From IMG/VR virus record IMGVR_UViG_3300021197_001403, positions 1-36,308 of that record: a DNA stretch of 36,308 bases, one strand, 5' to 3'. The stretch is from a virus. The notes beneath the pieces are model-generated. The model made no database searches. It saw only the letters and a list, made by a program, of their open reading frames with translations, and was not told the DNA's origin. How positions within the stretch are numbered: the first letter of the stretch is position 1; each line of letters begins with the position of its first letter. The translations under genes and the position numbers were made by a program. Below, piece by piece: positions 15,449 to 20,034 of the stretch.

Positions 15449-16978
15449 TTATGTAAAGTTGATAAATGTATCTGCATTATATGGGGTTGTTGTATCAAGT
15501 ACGACGTAATCTGCTCCAAAGTAACTTGTTTCAAGTAGTTTACCTGTATCAGCTGCTGATTGAGATTCGCTTTTTACTAGGCCAATCGTTAGTACATCAG
15601 CATCCGCTGCATCTGCAGTATCCGCTTTTCCAAGTGTGGTTGCAATAACTGGTGCGTCTGCTTTCGATGCTGTATCGGCAAATATTCGTAGGAATGATAT
15701 AAGTAGGCTTTCGCTAGCATCAGCAGTGTCACCAACTGGCTTGGCCAATGAGAATACTTTTGCTTCCGCTGCATCGGCTGTATCGGATGGTGTTAGGAAT
15801 GCTGTCCATACTCTTGATAGACTTTCTGCTGCACTTGCACCATCGGCCTTTGTCATAGCATATGTAAACGTAAGCCCATCTGGTACACCAACAAGATCTT
15901 CTGCGTCTGCGGTGTCGCCTAAAGCTTTTGCAATTGTTTGGACTAAGCTTTCGCTAGCATCGGCAGTGTCGTTAAAGCCTTGTCCAGTTACTAAGACAAA
16001 ATTATCAGATGCTGTATTTGAATCGCCAAATGGTTTACTCAGCGCAAGTGCAGGGGTATCAGCAGCATCTGCCGTATGACCAAATGCTGGTTTGTATGTT
16101 ACCACACGAGAGAAGACGTCCCCGGCACTGAGTGCCTCACTTGGATTCTTACCAAATGATATGACTGATGCGTCACTCGTGCCAGATAGAGTATCACCTG
16201 GGGATTCTTCAAAGAGAGAACCAATGGATATCGCAGAGTCCGCGGCAACTACTGTGTCTGAGAATGGTTTACTAATACTAAGGGCTGGGGTATCAACAGC
16301 ATCTAATGCTTCTCCTGGTGCAAGTCGGGCAGTCCATACCTTTGCAAAGTTTTCACTTGCGGTTAAATTCTCTGATTTACCCATTGCAAACTGATACGTT
16401 ATACCATCAGGTACACCAATAAGATCATCAGCATTTACCCCGTCCGCTTTTACTAGGCTTGTAGTAAGTACTTGCGAATCGGCTTTGCTTACTGTATCAG
16501 CTTTAACCAAACTTGTAGTTAATACTTGAGAATCTGTTTGGTTTACAGTTTCGCCAAATGTACGAATGTATGTTACAACTTTAGCGAATGTATCTACAGC
16601 GGTCTGGCCTTCGCTCTTTGCGGTACTAATTACCTTGACAACACCTTCAGACGCTGTAAGAGCTTCTGATTTACCAAGAGCAACAGTAAGTGCAGCATCA
16701 TCAAGACCAGATAATGTTTCCCCAACGGCCTGTACAATATTCAGTGTATCAACGTCGGTTGTGTTCAGACTTTCGCCAAAGATCTTACTTACTGCTAATT
16801 GTAATACCTGTGTAGGATCTACAGTTTCGGCAAATGCTCTATCGTAGATAAATTGTAGTACATCTGAGACTTGTGCACTGTCACCAAAATTAGATAAAAT
16901 ATAGTTGATAAGCCGGAAGTCGGGTTTACGAATAGTATTCGTTCCAAACGGGGTTATTCTTCTGCCAGTGTTTGCCAT
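15449..16978 (-). CDS. Repetitive structural protein with ~20-residue repeats (509 aa)
   Basis: A short unique N-terminus (GRRITPFGTNTIRKPDFRL) is followed by about 20 repeats of roughly 20 residues with the pattern DT-x2-A-x-(D/E)-x6-L-x-K. Examples are GDTADASESLVQTIAKAL and GDTADASESLLISFLRIF. A larger unit is also duplicated: residues 184-240 and 360-416 both run DL(I/V)GVPDG(I/L)T ... WTA ... KP. The C-terminus (ETSYFGADYVVLDTTTPYN) is unique and is the likely partner-binding or tip part. The composition (acidic, Ala/Ser/Thr-rich, one Cys-free chain) and location among fibre genes suggest an elongated virion protein. No enzymatic motif is visible. The short gap to the 112-residue gene implies co-transcription. 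Confidence 0.85.
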   Translation of the reverse strand: MANTGRRITPFGTNTIRKPDFRLINYILSNFGDSAQVSDVLQFIYDRAFAETVDPTQVLQLAVSKIFGESLNTTDVDTLNIVQAVGETLSGLDDAALTVALGKSEALTASEGVVKVISTAKSEGQTAVDTFAKVVTYIRTFGETVNQTDSQVLTTSLVKADTVSKADSQVLTTSLVKADGVNADDLIGVPDGITYQFAMGKSENLTASENFAKVWTARLAPGEALDAVDTPALSISKPFSDTVVAADSAISIGSLFEESPGDTLSGTSDASVISFGKNPSEALSAGDVFSRVVTYKPAFGHTADAADTPALALSKPFGDSNTASDNFVLVTGQGFNDTADASESLVQTIAKALGDTADAEDLVGVPDGLTFTYAMTKADGASAAESLSRVWTAFLTPSDTADAAEAKVFSLAKPVGDTADASESLLISFLRIFADTASKADAPVIATTLGKADTADAADADVLTIGLVKSESQSAADTGKLLETSYFGADYVVLDTTTPYNADTFINFT

Positions 16979-16981
16979 AAT

Positions 16982-17320
16982 CTACGAGATCGTTGTAACG
17001 CCGGGCGTGACGGTTATCATGCCTTCGATTACCCTGTATTTTTCATTAGCAGGTGTTTCAATTAAAACATCATACACATATCGTCCGGCTTTAATAGTCG
17101 CTGTCTGTTCGTCCGTAAGGCTAATTTTGATCTCACCTGCAACTGCTGTAGCTGCTGCAGTAAAGCTTGCAGTAACAGAGGATGACGTGTAAGTCTTTTT
17201 CATCTGTGCTGCGAAGGTATGACTATTAAGGCCATACGCTGCACCATTTGGATCCTTGACACTAACTATATAGGTAAATGAAGATCCTTGTTCAATTTCT
17301 AAGTCTTCGTAAACAGCCAT
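16982..17320 (-). CDS. Small beta-sandwich virion protein, BppU-N-terminal-like (112 aa)
   Basis: The sequence VYEDLEIEQGSSFTYIVSVKDPNG, a central MKKTYTSS strand region, and AGRYVYDVLIET leading to RVIEGMITVTPGVT match the layout of a common small phage domain found at the N-terminus of baseplate or fibre proteins such as BppU and as a free-standing protein in T4-like marine phages. It is probably a structural adaptor for a fibre; this is inference. It lies 4 nt before the 509-residue repeat protein and follows two late-promoter boxes. Confidence 0.82.
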   Translation of the reverse strand: MAVYEDLEIEQGSSFTYIVSVKDPNGAAYGLNSHTFAAQMKKTYTSSSVTASFTAAATAVAGEIKISLTDEQTATIKAGRYVYDVLIETPANEKYRVIEGMITVTPGVTTIS

Positions 17321-17374: not shown

Positions 17375-18148
17375 TTATTTATAATATTCAAGAAAAAGCT
17401 CCTCAGCAAATTCCCATAGATCATCTTGTGCTGTTACCCCATTCAATATGCAAAATGGAATGTGTGGTGCATGTAATAAACCTACGTCAGGGTTATTTAT
17501 CCATTCACCATTTACTCTTTCAAATCTATACTTCCCCCACCCTTTCTTGTGTTTCATAGCAACAGATACTCCGTATGTACCATAATAATCTTTCATAACT
17601 TCTAAAAATTCTAGATCGTCCCGGACCGTATGCCACAAATATCTACAAACACCTTTATATTCATTCATTACAAAATACGGATTTGCCATAAATGCGTCGT
17701 AAATCTTTTTCATATTATTTGAATGAAAGAACATTATAGAAGAGTTTACTTTTGTGTTGTAGTTATATCCAATGTCGAAAGCAGATGTTTCAACTAATGT
17801 ATCGCTATCAACAAAACATATTTTAATCTTTTGGGGGTTTACATTATCAAAGTAATGTGTTATATTACAATGAATAACAACATCAATATCCAAATATAAT
17901 ACCTTGCCCGGTGTATTATACACGGTCGGATCAAAGACACAGATCTTTGGCCAGAACCCTTTTATTTCAGAATCGGTGTATTCTGATATGTCGTATACTT
18001 GAATTTCAGGATATAGGTCTTCTGGATTTTCTGTAAGGCAGTAAAATTGAAATGGTAAATCCAGATTTCTTTTTACCATTCTATAGAGTCTGTTTACATG
18101 TTCAGCATTGTACTTTGTACCAGACTTAACACATACTACATTGATCAT
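17375..18148 (-). CDS. Putative glycosyltransferase, GT-A fold, GT8-like (257 aa)
   Basis: The N-terminus MINVVCVKSGTKYNAEHVNRL, the segment FYCLTENPEDL (36-46) and VLYLDIDVVIHCNITHYF (83-100) are the nucleotide-sugar-binding pattern of GT8-like enzymes; D87-x-D89 is the metal-binding DxD motif. The downstream FDIGYNYNTKVNSSIMFFHSN resembles the acceptor-side (D/N)xN-S region. It probably transfers a sugar from a nucleotide-sugar; donor and acceptor are unknown. The start overlaps the oxygenase-like gene by 4 nt (ATGA), so the genes are translationally coupled. Phage structural regions rarely carry two glycosyltransferases without a purpose, and virion protein modification is the favoured inference; host glycan or nucleotide modification are alternatives. 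Confidence 0.85.
   Translation of the reverse strand: MINVVCVKSGTKYNAEHVNRLYRMVKRNLDLPFQFYCLTENPEDLYPEIQVYDISEYTDSEIKGFWPKICVFDPTVYNTPGKVLYLDIDVVIHCNITHYFDNVNPQKIKICFVDSDTLVETSAFDIGYNYNTKVNSSIMFFHSNNMKKIYDAFMANPYFVMNEYKGVCRYLWHTVRDDLEFLEVMKDYYGTYGVSVAMKHKKGWGKYRFERVNGEWINNPDVGLLHAPHIPFCILNGVTAQDDLWEFAEELFLEYYK
17376..17383 (-). promoter_or_regulatory. Second, tandem TATAAATA box at the end of the glycosyltransferase gene
   Basis: A second perfect minus-strand TATAAATA overlaps the last codons and stop of the 257-residue glycosyltransferase gene, 25 nt upstream of the box at 17351-17358. It could be a tandem promoter, or chance because TAT AAA TAA encodes the Tyr-Lys-stop ending. Confidence 0.45.
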
Positions 18149-18810
18149 ACTGGATCTTCAATATCCTCGATGATTGATTCCCACATATCTTCTGCTTCCT
18201 GGAAGACATATGCGACAGAGATTCTTAAACAGTTCGTAGCAGCAGAGTGGTAACACAATCGATCTTGTTGGTGGTATCCGCCAAAATATCCCATCTTACA
18301 CTGCCATCCTGGAACATCTTGTACCCGGACTCTTTCTTTTTTATCTAGATCCCAGTAATCAAACCAGCCATCACCATTCTCAGACCATGAGAAGATAACA
18401 TTATATCCAGCAGCATTTGCATTATTGTGCCAACTAATAAACCCTCCTGGAGGATATACAGTAACAAGAGTATTGCGATGTGCAGATAGCTCCGTCATTA
18501 ATTCTACATTTGTTTCCTGGGCAACATCTCTGTATTTCTGAAGCGTACGAACATCAGCATCATCGTCAACCTTACCTGGTTGCAATCCATGAAAAGACTG
18601 CATTGTTTCTGGGAAGCCTTCGTGCTGTTGTCCCATCTGAATAACTCTGTGCATATATTCAGTAGACGTCCAGTCCTTCCAGCTGCTATTCTTACAATTC
18701 AGTTTTAGATCTTTTTTCAATTCCCCGTTTTCCCATTGCTGGGATATAAACTTCTGTAATTTGTCTAAAGTTTTCTGGACTTCTTCATTGTTGATTTTTA
18801 TATCTCTCAT
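18145..18810 (-). CDS. 2OG-Fe(II) oxygenase-like protein (221 aa)
   Basis: Residues 1-110 are helical. Residues 117-205 look like a double-stranded beta-helix core: TVYPPGGFISWHNNANAAG (117-135), YNVIFSWSENGDGWFDYWD, then GWQCKMGYFGG and CYHSAATNCLRISVAYVF. His128 and His188 are the likely iron ligands and Arg196 the 2-oxoglutarate anchor. The usual carboxylate of the HxD motif is replaced by Asn (H128-N-N130), so this is either an unusual facial triad or a two-His iron centre as in aspartyl/asparaginyl hydroxylases. Such phage proteins are found in marine T4-like genomes. It lies between two glycosyltransferases with 4-nt overlaps on both sides. A hydroxylase that prepares acceptor residues for glycosylation is the inference. 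Confidence 0.75.
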   Translation of the reverse strand: MRDIKINNEEVQKTLDKLQKFISQQWENGELKKDLKLNCKNSSWKDWTSTEYMHRVIQMGQQHEGFPETMQSFHGLQPGKVDDDADVRTLQKYRDVAQETNVELMTELSAHRNTLVTVYPPGGFISWHNNANAAGYNVIFSWSENGDGWFDYWDLDKKERVRVQDVPGWQCKMGYFGGYHQQDRLCYHSAATNCLRISVAYVFQEAEDMWESIIEDIEDPV

Positions 18811-19601
18811 ATTCTATAATCCGCTGCTTTGTTCATTGTTGATGAATAATGTATAATGATTGGATCTTTGTCAACTAAGTTATAGCTACCGTCTTCTTTT
18901 TGTCGAAAACTAGTAAACCAGTTCCAACGATAATTGTCTGAGAACCTACCAATCTTAATATCTTTATATTTATCCATTTTGTTTACCATCCACCAAAGAG
19001 TAAACTGATCCCATCTTAGCATAGAATGTGGAACATCATTTGCCCACCATCTTTCGGGCTCATCATAACGAATATCTTTTTTTCTTCTTTGGTAGATTCG
19101 TTCTTGTATTACAAACATCTCCCACCAGTCTATCATAAATTCCTTCATGATTGGTTTGCTATGATCATATAAACATACTCCACCACAAAGGGTAAGGTCA
19201 ACCCTTTCACCGTCACCAAACTCAGCATATACTTCTGCAAAGCTTCCTTGAGATCTTGCATCTTTTTTCAGTTCTACAAATGTTAGATCATTATCGCCTA
19301 ACTCGTCCCAGACACTTATAATGTCTTCGTGAGCGCATTCACAGTCTGCATCAATGTAGAATGTGATATCGTATGGCGTATTTTGCATACCATACATCTT
19401 AGATCTTATATGGTCAGGACAGTCAAAGATATGTTCACACATATCCCTTGCACGGTCATCAACCCAATCATCGTGTGTGAATAAAGTGATCCTTGCATCT
19501 TCGTAGTGATCCAATATTGAATCGATTAGGTTTACTGCTGATGCATAAAATGCCCATTGTTTTGAGGCAACAATTACAAAACCTTTACTTGGGCTGCTCA
19601 T
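18807..19601 (-). CDS. Putative glycosyltransferase, GT-A fold (264 aa)
   Basis: The protein begins GFVIVASKQWAFYASAVNLI and carries YDITFYIDADCECAHEDII (77-95), where D84-A-D86 is a DxD metal and nucleotide-sugar motif at the end of a hydrophobic strand. LTLCGGVCLYDHSKPIM and WWANDVPHSMLRWDQFTLWW follow, as in many GT-A enzymes where a conserved Asp/Trp region contacts the acceptor. It is not closely similar to the second glycosyltransferase at 17375-18148. It overlaps the preceding gene by 17 nt and the next by 4 nt. The substrate is unknown; modification of neighbouring fibre proteins is inference. Confidence 0.8.
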   Translation of the reverse strand: MSSPSKGFVIVASKQWAFYASAVNLIDSILDHYEDARITLFTHDDWVDDRARDMCEHIFDCPDHIRSKMYGMQNTPYDITFYIDADCECAHEDIISVWDELGDNDLTFVELKKDARSQGSFAEVYAEFGDGERVDLTLCGGVCLYDHSKPIMKEFMIDWWEMFVIQERIYQRRKKDIRYDEPERWWANDVPHSMLRWDQFTLWWMVNKMDKYKDIKIGRFSDNYRWNWFTSFRQKEDGSYNLVDKDPIIIHYSSTMNKAADYRI

Positions 19602-20034
19602 TCTCTATTTCATCTTTCAATAACATAACTGTGTAGGCCAATAACTCATATCTGTTTTTGGACTTTCTCATTCTTGCTTTCATTTTACGATTGGTAGAGC
19701 CTTTAATAGTATCAATCTCAAAGACTTCAAGCTTTGCATTAAAAAGCTCTTCCAGTTTCTTCGATTGCTCTTGCTCTTTCCGTTTCATAATATCTGCTTC
19801 ACGACGTTTACGATGTCGCTCTTCACGTTCCGATGTATTGATATCAATCTTCTCGATAGTATTCTGCTTAATAATTTCATCCCAGTCAGGATTCTGCTTG
19901 CCATCTTTTGTGTATTTAAAGATTTTTGCAGTAGAAGAAGATTCTTTACCATCTCCATGGTCAATTACCAATTTGCAGGTAATACGGTCTTTCTGGTAGT
20001 TCTCCCAAAAGGGATGCTTCCATAGTTTTTTCAT
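19585..20034 (-). CDS. Basic, Lys/Arg-rich coiled-coil protein of unknown function (149 aa)
   Basis: I do not recognise a characterised family. The N-terminal third (MKKLWKHPFWENYQKDRITC) is aromatic-rich; residues 60-100 are a highly charged helix (SEREERHRKRREADIMKRK) likely to form a coiled coil; the rest is basic (TNRKMKARMRKSKNRYELL) and ends in an acidic helix. It sits between the four-residue-repeat fibre genes and the glycosyltransferase cassette and overlaps the first glycosyltransferase by 17 nt. It could be a fibre assembly chaperone or an adaptor bringing modifying enzymes to the fibre; both are speculation from position. Confidence 0.85.
   Translation of the reverse strand: MKKLWKHPFWENYQKDRITCKLVIDHGDGKESSSTAKIFKYTKDGKQNPDWDEIIKQNTIEKIDINTSEREERHRKRREADIMKRKEQEQSKKLEELFNAKLEVFEIDTIKGSTNRKMKARMRKSKNRYELLAYTVMLLKDEIENEQPK

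Follow-up and report, generated by a model that had tools for sequence, protein, structure and literature searches.

A candidate fibre-modification cassette linked to a single fibre family in a T4-like phage

Introduction

The virus record IMGVR_UViG_3300021197_001403 from IMG/VR (36,308 bases, analysed at full length and called the window below) is a fragment of a marine T4-like myovirus. Two of its fibre genes, A and B, are followed by four small genes: ORF149, a glycosyltransferase-like gene (GT1), a gene for a protein with a predicted 2-oxoglutarate (2OG) oxygenase fold (OXY) and a second glycosyltransferase gene (GT2) (Table 1). Comparison with related viral contigs shows that ORF149, GT1 and OXY form a core dedicated to a single fibre family. 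This core is best read as a cassette for fibre maturation or modification, and probably acts as one.

In marine phages, the usual assignment of glycosyltransferases and 2OG oxygenases is to host lipopolysaccharide (LPS), DNA or metabolism. A gene set tied to one virion protein family makes the substrate question directly testable.

Linkage of the cassette to one fibre family

IMG/VR was scanned with four anchors, namely OXY, GT1, the fibre N-terminus and the DNA of WHNNANA. The best 80 matches of 313 (GT1), of 500 (OXY) and of 237 (fibre N-terminus) were taken. Each distinct protein was counted once; only identical proteins were merged, and the copies counted are related. Loci carry L numbers.

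In the GT1-anchored loci (L091-L169), fibre and ORF149 accompanied all 43 distinct GT1 proteins with more than 2.5 kb of upstream sequence, and OXY was present in 42 of these 43 loci. In the remaining one (L108) the contig ends inside GT1. Sixteen more loci had less room, 13 of them with the fibre. Fibre-anchored searches gave the same picture: ORF149, GT1 and OXY were all present with 40/40 distinct fibres having more than 3 kb downstream. Among 29 more fibres with less room, none of the set was found in 22 and some of it in seven. The OXY-anchored loci (L170-L245) held the full set in 43 of 44 cases with room; the exception, L234, belongs to a tail-tube/UvsY context described below. The WHNNANA set is made up of cassette loci on the one hand and loci lacking GT1 on the other. 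In the fibre context, GT1 and OXY occur almost always together and are usually adjacent. A preliminary description of the window had suggested that the cassette modifies the neighbouring fibres and had named co-occurrence with tetrad-repeat fibres as a test, which these counts favour.

The loci L033/L327 and L060/L353 were scored as lacking a fibre in the OXY-anchored and WHNNANA sets. On reading, L060 contains a Tyr-rich protein of 2092 amino acids (aa) ending in WTLYVRIA. L035, whose GT1 and OXY scores equal those of L033, carries its fibre at a greater distance upstream.

Gene order varies among the loci. The order fibre-ORF149-OXY-GT1 was found in L034, L036 and L446-L448, while a second fibre lies between GT1 and OXY in L456-L460 and L462-L464 (fibre-ORF149-GT1-fibre-OXY). 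GT1 stands ahead of the fibre in L493 (GT1-LTF-X-fibre-ORF149-OXY-GT2). Loci with about 35% GT1 identity (L488-L492, L495), detected by scanning with divergent GT1 sequences, still show fibre-ORF149-GT1-OXY, with LTF shifted upstream. GT2 is optional, being present in 32 of 150 cases, and stands outside the conserved core.

Fibre shafts

The shaft of fibre B is built of tetrads, mainly N/D, then Y/F/S, then T/V/L/A, then G/R. Between residues 260 and 800, self-identity reaches 0.35-0.39 at lags 4, 8 and 12, compared with 0.02-0.05 at lags 1-3 and 5, and 84 tetrads lie within runs of at least three. The periodicity is weaker in fibre A (self-identity 0.21 at lag 4). The tetrad repeat reported in the preliminary description is thus real. 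Fibre relatives mostly terminate in an ETYTLYVRTA-like motif.

Shafts were compared in fibres of at least 380 aa (7 of 187 were shorter and were dropped). The motif [YF]-x-[GR] exceeded composition shuffles at z>3 in 178/180 distinct shafts, including those with weak period 4; the two shafts without enrichment are those of L034 and L036. Over 48 GT1 clusters, shafts contain 11% Tyr, 0.7% Lys, 2.1% Pro and essentially no Cys. Shaft Tyr is followed by G/R at +2 in 67% and preceded by N/D at -1 in 49%. This composition points to Tyr, Asn/Asp or Ser/Thr as candidate acceptors. Hydroxylysine or hydroxyproline of the collagen type is disfavoured because Lys and Pro are so scarce. The lysine-bearing, collagen-like substrate typical of collagen lysyl hydroxylases (LH/PLOD) was not found in the shafts, the unit being [ND][YFS]x[GR].

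The Tyr fraction is higher in fibres beside GT2 (0.134 v 0.093, p = 5e-4, 18 v 30 clusters). As the GT1 tree requires just three GT2 changes, this association was dropped as independent evidence. Fibre B matches 69 records in all, S-RIM2-type cyanophages included. These cyanophage matches were set aside: the protein encoded in KX349281, the only such record examined, is a different one; it carries VTGN-type repeats, and no cassette adjoins it. In the remaining S-RIM2 records, the match lies at a similar place in records of like size.

OXY

OXY matched no PHROG or Pfam family. No functional PHROG match was obtained across 35 rows, and no prolyl 4-hydroxylase (P4H) or other 2OG profile of Pfam was found for 36 members at E 0.1. 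The label 'oxygenase' rests on fold prediction, since sequence families gave no support. The AlphaFold2 model (mean pLDDT 91.3) contains the double-stranded beta-helix of the 2OG-Fe(II) oxygenase superfamily. Its neighbours are mostly protein hydroxylases. They include the P4H of Pseudomonas putida (4j25; Foldseek E 1.8e-6; VIA Z 10.3, rmsd 4.0, 155 residues aligned), PHD2 (3oui; VIA Z 11.4, rmsd 3.3, 146 aligned) and PiuC (9qn4; VIA Z 10.7, rmsd 2.7, 143 aligned). Identity in the PHD2 and P4H rows is about 11-12%. Among viral predicted structures, the nearest is that of an 'uncharacterized protein' from an uncultured phage, with 32% identity and TM 0.85. OXY is accordingly assigned a predicted 2OG-oxygenase fold of the prolyl-hydroxylase type, a shared fold that does not show function. 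The oxygenase named in the preliminary description stands as far as the predicted fold goes; sequence families lend it no support, and its iron motif is HxN, not HxD.

Motifs were counted in OXY proteins of at least 195 aa. HxN was present in 210/210 distinct full-length sequences and HxD/E in none, so the HxD/E...H iron triad of 2OG-Fe(II) oxygenases is absent. Over 35 rows, H128, H188 and R196 never vary. In the model, H128 ends strand 124-128, H188 starts strand 188-192 and R196 starts strand 196-203, the places occupied by the iron ligands and the 2OG-binding arginine in such enzymes. A basic residue after the distal His, as in 2OG binding, was found by a simple H-x7-R pattern in 197 of the 210.

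ORF149, GT1 and GT2

ORF149 gave no enzyme match and, over 25 rows, no functional PHROG match. In the standard gene order it always lies between fibre and enzymes. From its position and size, it may be a fibre chaperone or adaptor.

GT1 had no functional PHROG match (27 rows) and weak Pfam matches among 28 members, namely Glycos_transf_2 in 11 (best 4e-4) and Glyco_transf_8 in one (8.5e-4). Foldseek matched its AlphaFold2 model (pLDDT 92.9) to the GT-A enzymes LgtC, UGGT and glycogenin; COLGALT1 came only at rank 45. VIA comparisons gave Z 16.8 for glycogenin (3t7n; rmsd 4.0, 199 aligned), 14.5 for LgtC (rmsd 3.6, 209 aligned) and 13.9 for the PBCV-1 capsid glycosyltransferase (2p73; rmsd 3.2, 180 aligned), at 12-16% identity. 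DxD and DQ were present in 158/158 sequences of at least 225 aa. With its predicted GT-A fold and DxD, which are features of family GT8, GT1 is a predicted GT-A/GT8-like glycosyltransferase.

GT2 matches phrog_1962, a glycosyltransferase, at E 1.3e-14. Profile searches of the PDB with OXY, GT1 and GT2 returned nothing relevant. The glycosyltransferase-oxygenase-glycosyltransferase arrangement originally proposed was retained in part: two glycosyltransferase-like proteins flank a 2OG-fold protein. For ORF149, which heads the four genes, no enzyme match was obtained, and GT2 is not part of the core.

A second context of OXY

Among 205 distinct OXY proteins, 150 occur with GT1, 43 with a tail tube and/or UvsY and 12 with neither. 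The last group comprises nine with LTF, two with a fibre and one with nothing; several are cut by contig ends. In the tail-tube/UvsY context, GT1 is absent and OXY is mostly located behind the major head gene. This paralogue (L080:9531-10639, L044, L046, L068; phage C48C1, 17798-18920) is encoded at a second gp19-like tail-tube gene or shortly after it, and UvsY follows. The major head gene is nearby, a glycosyltransferase is absent, and modification of the tail tube is a possible role. C48C1 also encodes, beside a NifU-like gene, a more divergent third OXY paralogue (OQ984149:40130-40804), whose motif is WHTNYDA (HxN, WHTN).

Interpretation of the cassette

A fibre-maturation cassette fits the linkage to one virion gene, the virion context of the OXY paralogue, the enzyme folds and the dense shaft motif. 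Late in infection, fibres, ORF149, GT1 and OXY, together with GT2 in some lineages, would be produced jointly from closely spaced or overlapping genes. ORF149 could act as fibre-specific chaperone or adaptor. GT1 would transfer a hexose from a nucleotide sugar onto the newly made fibre, and OXY would oxidise side chains of it; the recurring [YF]-x-[GR] shaft units are the most likely target of both. GT2, where present, would extend the glycan or add sugars. The outcome would be a densely decorated fibre, stiffer or shielded. We infer the fibre as substrate, and likewise the residue, the sugar, the order of steps and the benefit. Hydroxylation before glycosylation is the weakest step, and independent modifications seem about as likely. 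A tentative proposal is a new coupled modification that a family of tailed phages would perform on its own fibres: an iron oxygenase with HxN, representing a class so far undescribed, would oxidise residues in the [YF]-x-[GR] units, which number in the hundreds, and a glycogenin-like glycosyltransferase would then sugar them. A bacterial virus would thereby have a glycoprotein fibre that depends on hydroxylation.

Several points weigh against fibre modification. Three of the scans drew on the best 80 matches, and the proteins counted as distinct are related copies. HxN stands where a carboxylate ligand is usual, so OXY may not be a standard hydroxylase. The role of the shaft motif may be structural and nothing more. 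A modification of the receptor, matched to the fibre, also fits the linkage taken alone. Cassettes beside fibres without tetrads, which the preliminary description held to speak against fibre modification, were not seen generally; they do occur in a small lineage, in which the fibres of L034 and L036 score z -0.6 and -1.0 for the motif and the cassette is retained. L448, a relative, combines the cassette with the fibre family lacking the tetrad motif; it was seen but left unscored.

The main outside rival is a modification of the host surface, in which the glycosyltransferases alter LPS or capsule, progeny avoid debris or competitors are excluded, and the linkage comes from a match between receptor and fibre. 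It is indeed possible that fibre and receptor modification co-segregate, and GT8 genes in the host-recognition cluster of marine myophages and pelagimyophages have been read in this way (PMC7029224). The fold neighbours of OXY are mostly protein hydroxylases, its paralogue sits with a tail-tube gene, and the linkage to a single fibre family was without exception where flanking DNA sufficed, all of which makes a host-surface role unlikely. O-antigen conversion of the gtr type uses a flippase and a lipid-linked-sugar glycosyltransferase beside the specific glycosyltransferase. Among the 30 proteins scanned from the window, itself a fragment, none matched a PHROG for a flippase or for an enzyme of lipid-linked sugars. 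Slightly less probable still is a non-oxidative OXY with a degenerate iron site, which would help fibre and tail-tube proteins to fold or would bind them. The uniform HxN motif speaks for it, and the invariance of H128, H188 and R196 against it. Moreover, AspH (aspartate/asparagine beta-hydroxylase) is reported to be active with HXG...H, by two His ligands and no carboxylate (PMC12816917), so by analogy HxN need not mean inactivity.

Independent modifications, with OXY and the glycosyltransferases acting in no order on different residues of the fibre or its neighbours, are a version of fibre modification, not disjoint from it, and are possible, though not the likelier case. Among the folds compared, GT1 comes nearest to the glycogenin type, and glycogenin glycosylates a tyrosine directly; the shafts are rich in Tyr, and OXY is also present in the tail-tube context, where GT1 is missing. 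The nearly constant, usually adjacent pairing of GT1 and OXY beside fibres argues in the other direction. Hitch-hiking of mere neighbours in a plastic region would agree with the variable baseplate-neck interval of marine T4-like phages (PMC7029224). A chance neighbourhood is not expected because the gene set survives divergence and shuffled orders, and this explanation is very improbable.

Comparison with known systems

Mimivirus L230 is a fused glucosyltransferase and collagen lysyl hydroxylase that hydroxylates and glucosylates collagen lysines (PMC9614988). As in L230, PLOD and LH3, the genes described here predict a virus-encoded hydroxylase and glycosyltransferase for a repetitive fibrous protein. 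Unlike these single fused proteins acting on collagen lysines, they are separate genes of tailed phages, with HxN, a GT8-like glycosyltransferase and Lys-poor shafts. Mimivirus R699, which adds glucose onto galactosylhydroxylysine (PMC9546862), follows a similar logic, while its proteins and substrate differ. The collagen analogy of the preliminary description was not supported, in view of the Lys- and Pro-poor shafts, the separate genes and the best folds, P4H/PHD and glycogenin/LgtC.

Mycobacteriophages glycosylate their own virion proteins (Freeman et al. 2023, cited in PMC12619734). In the cited passage this concerns capsid and tail-tube C-termini and no oxygenase is mentioned, while a fibre and OXY are proposed here. 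PHD2 and the Pseudomonas P4H share the fold of OXY, which differs in having HxN instead of HxD and a Pro-poor proposed substrate. AspH, like OXY, lacks the carboxylate iron ligand, with HXG in place of HxN. Glycogenin, LgtC and 2p73 share the GT-A fold with GT1 despite their low identity. For prolyl 4-hydroxylase of viruses, one survey states that its use 'remains cryptic' (PMC9301287). Searches of the open-licence PMC literature showed no paper on a tailed-phage cassette of hydroxylase and glycosyltransferase dedicated to a fibre. If the proposed reading is true, dense chemical decoration would be an added way for phages to tune receptor binding, and OXY would represent a family of oxygenases whose iron site is unusual and for which the PHROG and Pfam copies searched contain no model.

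Locus layout and further observations

All virion genes of the window are located on the minus strand. Each of the four small open reading frames has an ATG, a stop and an intact frame. Successive overlaps from ORF149 to GT2 are 17, 4 and 4 nt, and 15 nt separate fibre B from ORF149. The order is fibre A, fibre B, ORF149, GT1, OXY, GT2 and an LtfC-like gene. Upstream lie baseplate wedge genes, downstream head-tail adaptor, head closure, sheath, tube, portal and protease genes. The overlapping arrangement directly behind two fibres and its location in a T4-like virion block, both part of the preliminary description, were confirmed. Promoter and terminator scans gave no excess over shuffles.

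Table 1. Fibre and cassette genes in the window.
Feature	Position	Strand	Characteristics
Fibre A, 507 aa	22453..23976	-	N-terminal domain, Y/F-x-G/R repeat shaft, C-terminal ETYTLYVRTA
Fibre B, 800 aa	20050..22452	-	N-terminal domain family of fibre A, tetrad shaft [ND][YFS]x[GR], C-terminal ETYTLYMRIA
ORF149, 149 aa	19585..20034	-	Small charged protein; invariant W10, K15, L97, F98, R123
GT1, 264 aa	18807..19601	-	Predicted GT-A fold, glycogenin/LgtC-like; D84xD86, D198-Q199, H251 invariant in alignment
OXY, 221 aa	18145..18810	-	Predicted 2OG-oxygenase fold; HxN (H128, N130), H188, R196
GT2, 257 aa	17375..18148	-	Second glycosyltransferase (phrog_1962), D87xD89; accessory
LtfC-like small protein	16982..17320	-	phrog_1084, phrog_3304; downstream of cassette, usual but not fixed neighbour

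The gene for a 509-aa repeat-rich protein with DTADA/ESL-type units (15449-16978) separates the LtfC-like gene from the tail genes that come next; no convincing family match was obtained for the protein. Behind the cassette, radical SAM genes were present in L489 (11284-14520) and L488 (12155-13222), and a weakly matched methyltransferase in L489. They are possibly further modification enzymes.

Matches in the cellular collection were confined to two places (L444, L445) on JAAXIF010000028.1, binned with a Sphingobacteriales genome. Both contexts of OXY occur on this contig, which is probably of phage origin and gives a hint of the host and no more.

Phage C48C1 encodes a 3347-aa fibre of the same family together with ORF149-GT1-OXY. 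Seven tRNA genes (Thr, Asn, Leu, Asp, Tyr, Ser, Ala) are listed in its sequence (OQ984149, 1-100000), five of which match the main non-Gly/Arg tetrad residues of this fibre. The same region also encodes a UDP-glucose dehydrogenase and a nucleotide-sugar epimerase.

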